This document shows positions 21,019-51,956 of a stretch of DNA of 64,000 nucleotides, piece by piece. The notes under the pieces are model-generated. The model was not told where the DNA came from, ran no database searches, and saw only the letters and a program-made list of their open reading frames with translations. The DNA is from Cokeromyces recurvatus (Eukaryota; Mucoromycota; Mucoromycetes; Mucorales; Mucoraceae): assembly GCF_025118155.1 (NCBI RefSeq), contig NW_026251392.1:248001-312000 (forward strand), given 5' to 3'. The first letter of the stretch is position 1. Each line of letters starts with the position of its first letter. Position numbers and translations under genes: made by a program.

Positions 21019-22140
21019 TTTACATGTATAAAGGATAAAAAGTAATAATAATAATAATAAAATGGTAAAAAAAAATATATGTGAAATACTGCTTTAATGA
21101 CTTTCTTTCTGTAGCACATATAAATATAAATGGACCGCTGAGCCACTTTTGTTTTTCTATTAATCATATAAATTATGATCACCACTTTTATTGCTCTATT
21201 AACTTAAAGACGAAAAGGTAAGTACTAATTTTTTTTTAAGCGTTATAATAGAAAAGCTAAACTAATATGTCTTATGTCAAATGATAAAGTTTAAAACAAC
21301 TTGGGAATCCTCTTCGGCTATACTTTATATACACATATTTATATTATGAATAATTTGATAATTATTTTACTTTCTACTTCTAGATACCACTATAATGATC
21401 AATAACATTATTAAAAATTAGTTTATCATATTTGTGTTTGTTAAATAAATCAAGTAAAGAGCCAGTTAATGAACATTAAAGAACCTTATCCAACTTAAGT
21501 TTTGATATAATAAGCATCATGAGTAAATTAAAAATTGAAACCATGCCTAATATATTTCTTTTAATATTGCAAATGCAATTCTACCGAAATATGAGGAATA
21601 TAAAAAATAACGGATCCCACTGCGAAAAGTTGGCGTACGACATATAAAAGTACTATACGTCGTACGCCACAATCTAAGCTGCAATTTTTTTTAATTGTTT
21701 ATTTCTACTAATTTTTAATATAAAACCTCCAACTAAAAAATATGTTATGCTTAATATACTATCCAAAAAAAAAAGACATGTCTACTGCTAATATTCATTA
21801 TTTTTTTAATGTTTAAATTTACAGCTATTTTGGCTGTGTTTTTTTACAGGGTAAAATTTTCCAACCAAAAAAATTAGCCAATAGAATTTATAAAATTTAA
21901 TATTGCTGAATTTTAAAAATACTTTTAATTTTTCATTGTAGTTTTTTCCCTTACAGTCGAAGAAACTAGGTTGTGTCAATAAAAAAATTTTTTTGACCAT
22001 TTCCAAAATAAATAAGGGACACCAATAGGAAAATGGGACATTGGTACGAACATAGTACACAGAAGGGAATATGGGAAATTAAGGTACTTTAGTTTGTTTG
22101 ATCAAATCAAAATTGTTACAACTTCTTACCTGTAGCATCA
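21019..22140. other. Intergenic, 3' flank of the Fanzor relic
   Basis: AT-rich, no sustained coding frame. It contains the perfect palindrome at 21631-21669. If the Fanzor gene belonged to a mobile element, this region, downstream of the nuclease stop, is where its guide-RNA sequence and element end would be expected. Confidence 0.5.
21631..21669. repeat. Palindrome with 11-bp arms (TGGCGTACGAC)
   Basis: TGGCGTACGAC at 21631-21641 and its exact reverse complement at 21659-21669 flank a 17-base spacer. It is GC-rich in an AT-rich setting. It could form a hairpin or be a transposon terminus; the role is not established. Confidence 0.85.
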
Positions 22141-22278
22141 TTAAGTCGTCGGTTCACCGGAGTGAGCCGGGACAACCACATTGGAGGTGACGGTTTGTCG
22201 TTTGAAGACGGTGGGGCGATCATTGTCATTCCATATAGACGGAGCTATGTAAAACATATTTTTGCTGGCCATTACATG

Positions 22279-22876
22279 TCATGGTTGTAAGATTTATAAT
22301 TTAATTCAATAAGATAAATAGTCATAATAGAATACATAGTGCATTTGTATAATAATTCTCTCTATAAACATATTTAGTATATTTACCCTTGTATAGAAAA
22401 ATAACTAATTAATAAAAAGTCCTACATCTAAAAATATACTTTCTTCTATTATTGTTCTGCTGAATATTAATTTATAAAAATAACTTTATACAAGTTAAAC
22501 TGGGGTAAACTAAGAATAATACAAATACGCGTAATAATTGATTCTACTCAGAATACACGTATTAGTTATAAAAATAAATATATACTAAAGACATGAATCT
22601 ATAATTATAACTCTTAGTAATCCTTCTATAATTATATTATCAAATACAATTTGTTATATTTTTTGTCTTCTTATTACTCATCATCCTTATTCACAAAATA
22701 TATAAATACTCTTACATTATTCACCCTTATTTTGTATAACTTATAACTAATAACAATACTTGTATTGAATTAACTTTTAATAAACTTATTGACAAGTCTC
22801 AACGTACTTCTTCTGTCTTATTTTCTTTTACTTTATTTCTTTTATTTAATTAATTAAACTTACCTAAACCACAACA
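22279..22876. mobile_element. Solo-LTR-like repeat, copy 1 (TGT...ACA), inside the Fanzor relic
   Basis: Starts TGTCATGGTTG and ends CCACAACA, with an inverted second copy at 24811-25333. It separates LKCSEDC from VMASKNM of the Fanzor zinc-ribbon region, with some coding residues lost between them. TGT...ACA ends and absence of ORFs suggest a solo LTR or a non-autonomous element. No clear target duplication is visible (flanks TTACA and ATCTT). Confidence 0.7.
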
Positions 22877-23068
22877 ATCTTCACTACACTTCAGATTTTC
22901 TATATCATTTTCAAAGCAAGAATTGTAGATCTATGAAGAATTGGTTTTAGCTGAAAGTGCAATATGTAAACTATATGTTGTTTTTTCTTAATAACCTTTA
23001 ATGTATTAAATTCGTTGATGACTAGCAGCAAGAGTTCTCTAAGCCTTTGCCTTGTTTTTAATTGTTGA

Positions 23069-23739
23069 TGTTTTGATAGCAAAAAGTTAAATGAAGAGAA
23101 AAAGACAAAAGACAAGTCTGTGAAAACTTCGAGTAGTTTTTATTGAGAAAAATAATACAAAAATTGTACCAAGAAAAAAAAATATGGAAAAATGACGAGT
23201 GCTATTTATATGTTTTTATGAGGTAAGTCATATTGATTGGAGTGTGATTTAGATAAGTGAATCCTGCTATAATAAAGCCTTTATGCACAAATATGCACGA
23301 ATATGCACAAATTTTGTCTCCGAATAACTCTGCATGCAGTATGCAGATTTCTGCCTGAGCTGTTGCTGATATTAAAAATATACACGATTATTGTCTTTGG
23401 GATAAGCAACGCGTTAATATTAATTTACAGTGTATCTTCCCTCTATAACAATATACAACGTTATGGATGTATATATAATATGTACGACTTGTATCAATAA
23501 TCGTAATTCAATATAACAATCATAATCCTATTAAATTATTATTATTACATAATATAATGTATATAATTATTTTGAATGCTCGAATACTCAAACAATGACT
23601 ATTATCAAAACTGAGAGTAGAATGAATATTATGCTGTGAAGCGCAATATATTAGTTTTATTTGAACAACCTCTTTATTATGTAATAAATGATGGTTTATT
23701 TCTATTAACTTAATTATAAAGGCTACTACAATCACAACA
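23069..23739. mobile_element. 671-bp solo-LTR-like insertion with perfect 5-bp target duplication GTTGA
   Basis: The element begins TGTTTTGATAGC and ends ATCACAACA on the plus strand. GTTGA occurs immediately on both sides (23064-23068 and 23740-23744). Removing the element and one GTTGA restores the Fanzor frame across KIYQ|QLKTRQRLREL. Size, TG...CA ends and 5-bp duplication match an LTR left after recombination. No coding frame is convincing inside. Confidence 0.85.
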
Positions 23740-24810
23740 GTTGATATATTTTGTTAGATACGTCATGACGGAGATCTTTGAACTTGATATGATCCTTGTT
23801 TTTTAGTCCCTCACCAAAGACCACCAGAGGCATCTTGCTGCTGTTTCCCTTTTCAAAACAGACTTTATTGTTTCTGCTGTAAGTTACAGATATAATAGTT
23901 AAAATTTGCTGAAATAATAATAATAAAAAAAGTGTATACCTTTTTGATTTTGGGATGGTGGTGAGTGCTCTTTCTTCTTGAGCAGTACGAGGCTTGCGAG
24001 TTTTTCTTTGTCTTCTTTCTCCTGCTTTTATTATACTTCTTTCCACCATTTATTAAGATGTTGACACTTTCTTGGATGGCTTTTTGGGAACTAAGGTGGT
24101 TCAACCATTTAATCTTAGAAGTTTCAAAGCCATAGAAAGTAAGCAAAGTATTCATGTGCTGCGGCATGTAAGTTATGTACAAACCAAATTGTTCCACAGA
24201 CACAGTTTTAGGCGAAGGAATGTCTGTTTCAATCTTTTCAATACCTAGTCTCTGTTTACTCTTCTGTTACTCTTTCATTCGTCTTACACTTCCACCCATA
24301 TTGTAATATTCGATTGAGGACAAGCGACATATGTCAGTGGTCACCATGATAAGAGACAAAAGGATCCCGTCTTCCTGGGTCTACAGTACATGGACGGAAA
24401 TACCTGTCCACCTCTTCGCTTGTAAAATCGTTCAACTCTAGACAGCTATTGTTTTCTGGTGATGACGGAAGCACTTTTCTAGCAAATAGAACTCTGTACG
24501 TGTAGCCATCAGTATACAATTCATTGAGAAACATCTTTCCTTTTCGTTCAGGCAGTGCTTGAAACTTTTCACAACTATATTTTTTTTTCGTCAGTAATTT
24601 GATTTATAGATATATGTAATAGTAATGTATACCTTTGAATGCCCAGCTTCTTAAAGTCAAACATTTGATAGAAGCATCTTTGTTTATGATCGAAAGGAGA
24701 TGATTCATTAGTTTGCTTTTTTTGTTTAACATCTGGGAAAATTCCGTTTAGGTTCTGAGCATTCATCTTTATGAATCGCCAGTGCAATCCAGGATTTGGG
24801 AATAGACTAA

Positions 24811-25333
24811 TGTTGTGGTTTAGGTAAGTTTAAAAATTAAAATAAAAATAAAAGAAATAAAAAATAAGACAGACAGAAGAAGTACGTTGAGACTTGTCAA
24901 TAAGTTTTATTAAGAATTAAGTTCAATATAAGCATTAATAATGTAAGAGTATTTATATATTTTGTGAATAAGGACGATGAGTAATAAGAAGATAAAAATA
25001 TAACAAATTGTATTTGATAATATAATTATAGAATGATTATCAAAAGTTATTATAGATGTAGATCTATGTCTTTTGTATATATTTATGTTTATAACTAATA
25101 TGTGTACTCTGAGTGAAATCAATTATTACGCATACTTGCATTATTCTTGATTTTCTCCAGTTTAACTTGTAAATTAATATTCAGCAGGACTTTTATTAAT
25201 TATTTTTCTATATAAGGATAAATATATTCTTAATATGCCTATAGACAGAATTATCATACAAGCACACTATATACATTTTCTATTATGACTATTTATCTTA
25301 TTGAATTAAGTTACAAATCTTACAACCATGACA
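24811..25333. mobile_element. Solo-LTR-like repeat, copy 2, inverted relative to copy 1
   Basis: Begins TGTTGTGGTTTAGG and ends CCATGACA on the plus strand, the reverse complement of the copy at 22279-22876 with many substitutions and a net shortening of about 75 bp. It ends the recognisable Fanzor coding sequence on its 5' side, so it either truncated the gene or came with a rearrangement. Flanks ACTAA and AACGG show no duplication. Confidence 0.72.
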
Positions 25334-50411: not shown

Positions 50412-51841
50412 TCATAATAAATACTCTTCTCCAGTTTCTGAATAACATTTAACTTTTTTGATGGCTACGATAGTATTATACGTGAGTAGGATAAAGTAGT
50501 ATATATATATATAATAGATAATTTTAGGTCTTCTCATTAGAGATAATATATTTCTTATAGCAAGTGCTATTGTTAAGGATGATTTATCAGTGATTGCTCC
50601 AAGTACACAAAATCTAGTAAATATATCAACAACTAGAAGGATGTAGTTATTTCTTTGTAAAAATGTTGTCATAGGTCTAGCGGTGTCAATACAAATATGG
50701 TTTCATGGAGCATTAGCATAAACTGATTTTAATGGATAATATCCATGTTTTGCTAGGTTAAAATGTTGACAATCAGGACAGTCTTTTACTGTGTCAAGAG
50801 CATCTTCTTTTAAGCTTTGTCCGATGAATTCCTTCACTATATAAAGTTGTTACTATAGCTTGAGCACCACGATGTCCTTCTAAATAAGTCTTTATAAGTA
50901 GCTTTGGTCTTTCTTCTAGTGCTGGTGTTATTAAATCAGCAGGGCATCATCACACGAGATGTAAGAATAGATCCATCGTCGTTGACAATTTGTAAAGTAA
51001 TAATGGTCTTAGGAGTTTTATCCCCAATCAGCATTTTTTTCAGGTTCGAAAAGACGTGATAAAGAATCTGGAAGTATATTGTGAATATCAGGTCTGTGAA
51101 TAATTTTAAAGTCATAATCCAAGATGGTATCAAGCCAATTGATCATCATAGAATTGGCAACGGGTTGAGTATGGAGGAAAGTAAGAGCTTTATGGTCGGG
51201 TATATAAGATAAAAGGAATTCCCCCATAAGAATGGATGAAACTTCTTTAAAGCAAATATGATACCAAGTAATTCTCTTTTGGAAGTTGAATAATTTCTTT
51301 CAGAAGCAGAAAGTGAACGAGCCATAAAACCAATATATCTTGTTTTGTTGTCAATGATCTGATATAGAACAGTGTCAATAGAATAGTTACTAGCGTCAGT
51401 AGCAATGTAAAATGGCTGTTGAAGATCGGGATGATGAAGAACTGGAGCCAAAGATAAAAGTTTCTGAATCTTCAGGAAGACAGTTGCTTGTTCCTTTGTC
51501 CATAAAGTATCGTTAAGTTTACCTTCAAATCTTAACTTATCCAATGGAGCGGTTACTTTTGAAATGTTAGGCAAATATTTTCTGAAATAATTTATCAAAC
51601 CCAAGAATCTTTGAATTTCTTTACCAGAAGTGGGTCGTAGCCAAGACAAAGCATTGGTGACATTACGAGGACCGATACAAAGTCTATGTTCTGTACAATT
51701 ACCAAATAAATCCTTTTTAGGTGCCAATGTTAAAGGTGAATTCCAATTGGAATTAGGCGATACGCATTTGATTACCTCGTCCTTTAACCAAGTATATAGT
51801 GATAGGTACAATAAGAGTATGGTTAGTATTAATACTTTCAT
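50412..51841 (-). pseudogene. Ty3/gypsy pol fragment (RT, RNase H, integrase), decayed
   Basis: Reading on the minus strand: RT entry (VSPNSNWNSPLTLAPKKD, HRLCIGPRN), an abrupt jump to SGKEIQRFLGLINYFRKYLP (so the RT core with its YxDD box is deleted), the RNase H-like part (FYIATDASNYSIDTVLYQ, SKRELLGIIFALKKFHPF), HKALTFLHTQ and PDSLSRL of the linker, the integrase zinc finger CPDCQHFN, and VVDIFTRF with the first catalytic Asp. Several frameshifts and a TGA replace the frame, so it is dead. It is head-to-head with the gag fragment. Confidence 0.88.
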
Positions 51842-51956
51842 TCCGTTTTCTGTTAATGAATTTTTTATGATGCTTATAATTATAGCTAACTGGATAATTA
51901 GAATTATCTAGGTCCATCATGTTATCATTACCGTCTGTATTGGATCATAAAATTAC

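Follow-up and report, generated by a model that had tools for sequence, protein, structure and literature searches.

The window analyzed in this study, 64,000 nucleotides of contig C56 (C56:248001-312000), belongs to the 28.05-Mb, 64-contig genome of the mucoralean fungus Cokeromyces recurvatus. The minus strand from 24810 to 22141 of the window is a confirmed dead Fanzor1 gene of this member of the Mucorales, and the locus as a whole is, with little room for doubt, what is left of a TIR transposon that carried Fanzor1; the element looks non-autonomous and of the Tc1/mariner type. The fossil itself is ordinary, and Fanzor1 genes within transposons have been known since 2013; the value of the locus lies in the family that surrounds it.

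Anatomy and identity of the Fanzor1 remnant

The preliminary description had read a series of peptides as the remains of a decayed Fanzor/TnpB-type nuclease. In the conceptual translation of the window all of them lie on the minus strand in the order claimed: FIKMNAQNLNGIFPDV (24775-24728), VDPG (inside 24387-24337), EYYNMGGSVRR (inside 24311-24270), VVFGEG (starting at 23824), NEFNT (ending at 23002), LKCSEDC (ending at 22874), and VMASKNM (starting at 22275). The coding remains up to RuvC-II occupy 23740..24810, as delineated by tblastn with the Mucor saturninus protein P0001, by open frames, and by a DNA identity of 93.8-96.1% over about 1 kb to twelve relatives in the same genome. They include a WED block, YTDGYTYRVLF (24484..24516), and a RuvC-I block, TVDPGRRDPF (24337..24387), and are broken twice, by a frame change with a stop codon (24336-24334) and by a second, in-frame stop codon (24269-24267). 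Further remains at 22877..23068 comprise LLLLVINEFNT, an intron, a YNSC knuckle, and the linker ENLKCSED, and the C-terminus, VMASKNM...GEPTT with its stop codon, lies at 22141..22276, all on the minus strand. Comparison with the relatives places short introns at 24632-24575, 23939-23877, and 22995-22931.

One assignment had to be revised. LKCSEDC, proposed as a zinc ribbon, is the linker between two zinc knuckles, of which the first is YNSC, with a cysteine lost, and the second is deleted together with the RD motif. The window copy therefore no longer has the C4 zinc ribbon with RD behind it; the relatives L040 and L044 keep LKCKTCNIFWNRD.

Three solo LTRs account for the large disruptions (23069-23739, 22277-22876, and 24811-25333), and the twelve relatives (L039-L050) lack these inserts. 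LTR B (23069..23739) is flanked on both sides by TCAAC (23744-23740 and 23068-23064), and its site is uninterrupted in the relative L047; a search with it returned 59 matching pieces, its own included, with one full-length identical copy at C23:6548. A tandem repeat of TATGCACAAA, in about three copies, is found within it at 23282-23312. LTR A (22277..22876, plus strand) has TG...CA ends and no matching duplication, and about 58 bp, including the second zinc knuckle and RD, are missing at its site. Among its 42 matches, its own included, 5-bp duplications were found at eight of nine other copies examined; these copies, together with the TCAAC repeats at LTR B, show the TG...CA ends and 5-bp duplications of solo LTRs. 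A second, more diverged copy of LTR A (24811..25333, minus strand, 75% identity, inverse orientation) occupies the place held in the relatives by the 5' half of the element, and it too has no duplication. This half, about 1.8 kb long in L040, is absent from the window except for a 30-bp match of its left repeat to the right end. Recombination between two LTR insertions with loss of the intervening DNA would explain the absent duplications. The possibility that the inverted repeats 22277-22876 and 24811-25333 form the TIRs of the Fanzor transposon was rejected, as they are solo LTRs and the gene extends outside them. Elsewhere in the window, the minus strand at 51146-51907 holds a retroelement reverse-transcriptase RNase H fragment (PF17919, E 8.1e-31).

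The window copy is thus a broken member of the Fanzor1 family, its decay being visible in the frame change, the in-frame stop, the solo-LTR inserts, and the deletion of the second knuckle and RD. The tblastn search with P0001 (773 aa) matched the window in five stretches, of which three, linked, have E = 1.7e-105 at 73-80% identity, the C-terminus has E = 1.8e-15, and another has 1.3e-4, which puts the observation far beyond chance. A protein search yielded 54 relatives, 49 of them from Mucorales. The family assignment itself comes from these relatives rather than from the broken protein of the window: a profile of 20 of them run against the PDB matched SpuFz1 with E = 1.8e-14 (the next match having E = 0.34), and an AlphaFold2 model of the relative P0006, with a mean pLDDT of only 61.8, matched seven chains below E 0.001, all from Fanzor proteins (SpuFz, PpFz, and GtFz; E 2.2e-12 to 3.3e-8). 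The fold search with this model gave no non-Fanzor match under E 0.001. Pfam, applied to the five window fragments singly, found no Fanzor or TnpB domain and returned one unrelated match below the cut-off. Both DPG (RuvC-I) and TDG (WED), described as Fanzor1 signatures (PMC10711439), are present in the window. No P0006 relative was confirmed in viral contigs.

The transposon and its family

The genome contains 70 PF07282 places, 60 of them above the cut-off. The family of the window, sampled here as 13 copies including the window itself, has frameshifts in all twelve relatives and stop codons in ten. These lesions were counted with our own aligner, which scored gaps linearly and worked from a joined query, and they identify copies as broken rather than giving exact numbers; a shared frameshift at residue 807 probably belongs to the query itself. 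The suggestion that intact copies may exist elsewhere is not borne out within this family, as no intact copy was seen with this aligner among the twelve relatives. In the tree the nearest neighbour of the window copy is L047 (support 94/95), nine of ten inner branches are open, and the end branches are about 0.024. Variable sites among the twelve relatives are spread evenly over codon positions 1, 2, and 3 (60/294, 58/291, and 63/289, respectively), and the private changes of the window copy number 4, 6, and 1 at the same positions. As the nearly unresolved tree, this even variation, and the lesions indicate, the 13-copy family arose in a burst and then decayed neutrally, without coding constraint.

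The ends of the relatives are inverted repeats starting with TA|CAGTCGAAGAAACTAGGTTG, of which the window retains the right one only (21954..22076, minus strand, ending GACTG), with a putative TA target duplication beside it at 21952..21953. TA adjoins 78 of 80 ends examined, the search word itself having contained TA; no empty insertion site was seen, which leaves TA a candidate duplication. Allowing up to three mismatches, the 20-base end has 128 matches in the genome versus two for the reversed control. Among the 100 of these ends listed, compared with 138 merged Fanzor matches, a Fanzor match lies within 4 kb inward at 63 and outward at one. Paired at distances below 6 kb, the ends form 26 pairs, of which 22 have a Fanzor match inside. 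The other four pairs are 86, 112, 325, and 1,084 bp long; the short Fanzor-less pairs of 86-325 bp (C23:982962-983073, C53:14425-14510, and C30:24899-25223) resemble MITE-like derivatives.

These elements look like non-autonomous transposons of the Tc1/mariner type. Among the matches listed, a list cut at the scored candidates, the 4 kb inward of the end pairs that hold a Fanzor contain no DDE_3, so their transposase is a presumed one. DDE_3 matches lie inward of five and outward of three of the 100 ends listed, which shows no link to the element ends. At a related end, CAGCTGAAGAAAATAGGTTG, with 37 ends, DDE_3 is found within 5 kb inward at seven and outward at one, and Fanzor inward at two. 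The genome has one PF03184 match. A candidate autonomous partner of the Fanzor elements is a DDE_3 reading frame that stays open over 503 aa (C1:703429-705177) and lies 1.7 kb inside an end at C1:705150, which has three mismatches to the Fanzor-element end.

Right end and left flank

The preliminary description had also pointed to a possible conserved non-coding end next to the relatives, and such an end seems to exist. In the window, a hairpin, CGGCTCAC-TCCG-GTGAACCG (22150..22169, minus strand, seven of eight pairs), lies where the coding part ends and is followed by the motif TACAGGTAAG (22125..22134, minus strand), which is common to other Fanzor subfamilies of the genome. Several subfamilies have TACAGGTA(AG) after the stop codon. 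A C-terminal pattern sought in 28 loci gave 17 sites in 16 of them and none in the other 12, and ACAGGTA follows the stop at all 17 sites, in 14 exactly within 260 nt and in three with one mismatch within 60 nt, against a background of 0.029 per 260 nt; the sites are not independent, five coming from the window family and others forming near pairs. Across the genome there are 79 occurrences of TTACAGGTAAG, versus 21 for the reversed control. Forty of them have a same-strand Fanzor match no more than 1.5 kb upstream, none is so placed with respect to a match on the other strand, none lies upstream of a match, and 39 have no match nearby. The exact 11-mer is present within 600 nt downstream at 21 of the 70 PF07282 places and absent at 49.

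The window hairpin alone is not significant (p 0.14), and among the rows taken singly only four of 25 reach p 0.05. Jointly, hairpins searched for in the 7-18 nt ahead of the motif in 11 rows, one per subfamily as judged and selected for carrying the motif, score 142 versus 96.7 in shuffled sets (sd 11.1, highest 128), a value reached by none of 300 sets, and the mean score of 12.9 exceeds that at all 24 slid positions (6.1-11.2). The stem letters vary from row to row (TGTCT/AGACA, TCCTTT/AAAGGA, ACATCCC/GGGATGT, and others). Conservation among the copies of the family is no higher at the right end than in the interior (the mean identity is 0.924-0.940 for the terminal windows versus 0.937-0.977 inside). 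None of the 44 predicted pairs in the consensus fold of the family 3' ends shows covariation, and in this fold the motif is paired with sequence farther downstream, at odds with the idea of an unpaired motif. Rfam gave two matches under E 1 on the right end, both far below the cut-offs.

Two mosaic elements were noted by eye. The L049 locus (L049:3140-3400) has a gene of the window family and, past the motif, a 3' end like that of L054, possibly owing to recombination between Fanzor elements. The left end of a Fanzor element on C19 (L056:7380-7660), read outward, resembles the right end of subfamily L006/L008 and bears its own TACAGGTAAG; this element appears chimeric.

The hairpin and ACAGGTA together are a candidate for part of a guide RNA, or else for a splice site. 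The splice consensus is AG|GT. The motif agrees with it, and TACAGGTAAG could act as a strong donor (CAG|GTAAG) to which an acceptor (TTACAG) may be directly joined; the right end would then start an intron, or U1 would shield it from early polyadenylation. This would account for the constancy of the motif beside variable stem letters and for homology to other subfamilies that ends just past it (matches to query 14-170). Introns of the family lend it mixed support: of the five intron positions that recur among the copies, two have GTAAG donors and one uses the acceptor TTACAG, but the remaining three donors are GTATAC or GTTATT. A splice site also has no need of a hairpin, and the one found 7-18 nt upstream outscores both the shuffles and all the slid positions; we regard splicing as a possible explanation of the motif, though less likely than not. 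If the right end is instead part of a guide RNA, its hairpin may correspond to the first stem-loop of Fanzor1 RNAs. The RNA of SpuFz1 is described as lying between the stop codon and the right repeat (PMC10432273), and three Fanzor1 RNAs have in common a first stem-loop of seven pairs (PMC11423790).

At the opposite end, the flanking bases are biased. The three outer bases were taken at 80 of 96 ends (28 left and 29 right, as assigned by the Fanzor direction, and 23 without a nearby Fanzor). With tests picked after looking at the data, T adjoins TA on the outside at 27 of 28 left versus 15 of 29 right ends (Fisher p 1.6e-4), and A precedes this T at 20 of 28 versus 10 of 29 (p 0.008); the window family alone has T at eight of nine left versus three of 11 right ends (p 0.01). 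TAMs adjoin the left end of the element. This position agrees with the locus drawings described in PMC10432273 and PMC10711439, and the (A)T-TA left flank resembles the TAM 5'-ATN-3' that PpFz1 of Parasitella parasitica requires (PMC11423790). The T bias reads as a putative fossil TAM. The asymmetry might also be the work of the transposase, or an artefact of a mis-drawn end if the left end truly starts with T or AT, and would then say nothing about Fanzor. That account has a substantial chance of being right, if somewhat below even: T is nearly fixed at left ends, as a base of the element would be, among the 23 ends without a nearby Fanzor, 18 likewise have the T and 17 the A before it, and no empty site was seen. 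On the other hand, A at the second position is a mere preference, like a target motif, and the right ends have similar repeats but no bias.

Known Fanzor elements and a possible natural role

Fanzor1-only Tc/mariner elements with TIRs and TA duplications have been described (Bao and Jurka 2013, PMC3627910), and the Fanzor1 hosts given there include Rhizopus, Mucor, and Phycomyces. The Mucorales elements ROr-4, PBl-3, and MCi-4 of that paper are MuDr elements with 9-bp duplications, in contrast to the Cokeromyces element with its ends TA|CAGTC. Spu-1 of Spizellomyces punctatus, which carries SpuFz1 (Saito 2023, PMC10432273), is similar in having inverted repeats that enclose a Fanzor gene but, as far as found, no transposase, an RNA region between the stop codon and the right repeat (here a candidate only), Ty3 insertions at some loci, and Fanzor-less derivatives. 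It differs in that the Cokeromyces protein is distant from SpuFz1 (profile E 1.8e-14), and the Cokeromyces elements adjoin TA, are longer between the hairpin and the end, and are represented by 13 examined copies of this family that all look broken. PpFz1 (Xu 2024, PMC11423790) is likewise a mucoralean Fanzor1, with a first stem-loop of seven pairs in its RNA; that RNA is 75 nt long, whereas about 215 nt separate the hairpin from the element end in Cokeromyces. A literature search pairing Fanzor with Mucoromycota found nothing and one with Rhizopus little, and the right-end motif and flank bias were not met in the portions of the Fanzor literature consulted.

A tentative scenario, which we consider possible as a whole though improbable on balance, would combine a transposase acting in trans, Fanzor cutting, and copy-back repair. 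A transposase from elsewhere would have mobilised the elements; the Fanzor RNA would be read out through the right end, that is, the hairpin, TACAGGTAAG, the TIR, and then the flanking guide; Fanzor with this RNA would cleave empty sites next to an (A)TTA-like motif; and repair of the cut sites would copy the element back. The orientation-specific (A)TTA footprint, taken with the common hairpin-TACAGGTAAG right end, might be a sign that a Fanzor1 with a right-end RNA, acting in trans also on broken copies, decided which insertions stayed, a proposal that we hold to be doubtful. It is about as conceivable as the combined scenario that the Fanzor gene was a passenger and the transposase alone spread the elements, and the even codon-position variation and the lesions in all twelve relatives fit this, the copies of the burst not having been kept for coding. 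A passenger would nevertheless leave the left-flank bias and the motif common to divergent subfamilies to be accounted for.

The natural role of Fanzor is treated as open in the discussion of PMC10432273. If the proposal of Fanzor1-dependent retention of insertions is true, such retention would be that role. A 28-Mb genome with 70 PF07282 places, common ends, a right-end motif, and a left-flank bias constitutes a natural experiment on whether RNA-guided cutting keeps Fanzor elements in place, and the motif and flank bias of the sister copies may help to show the natural function of Fanzor.
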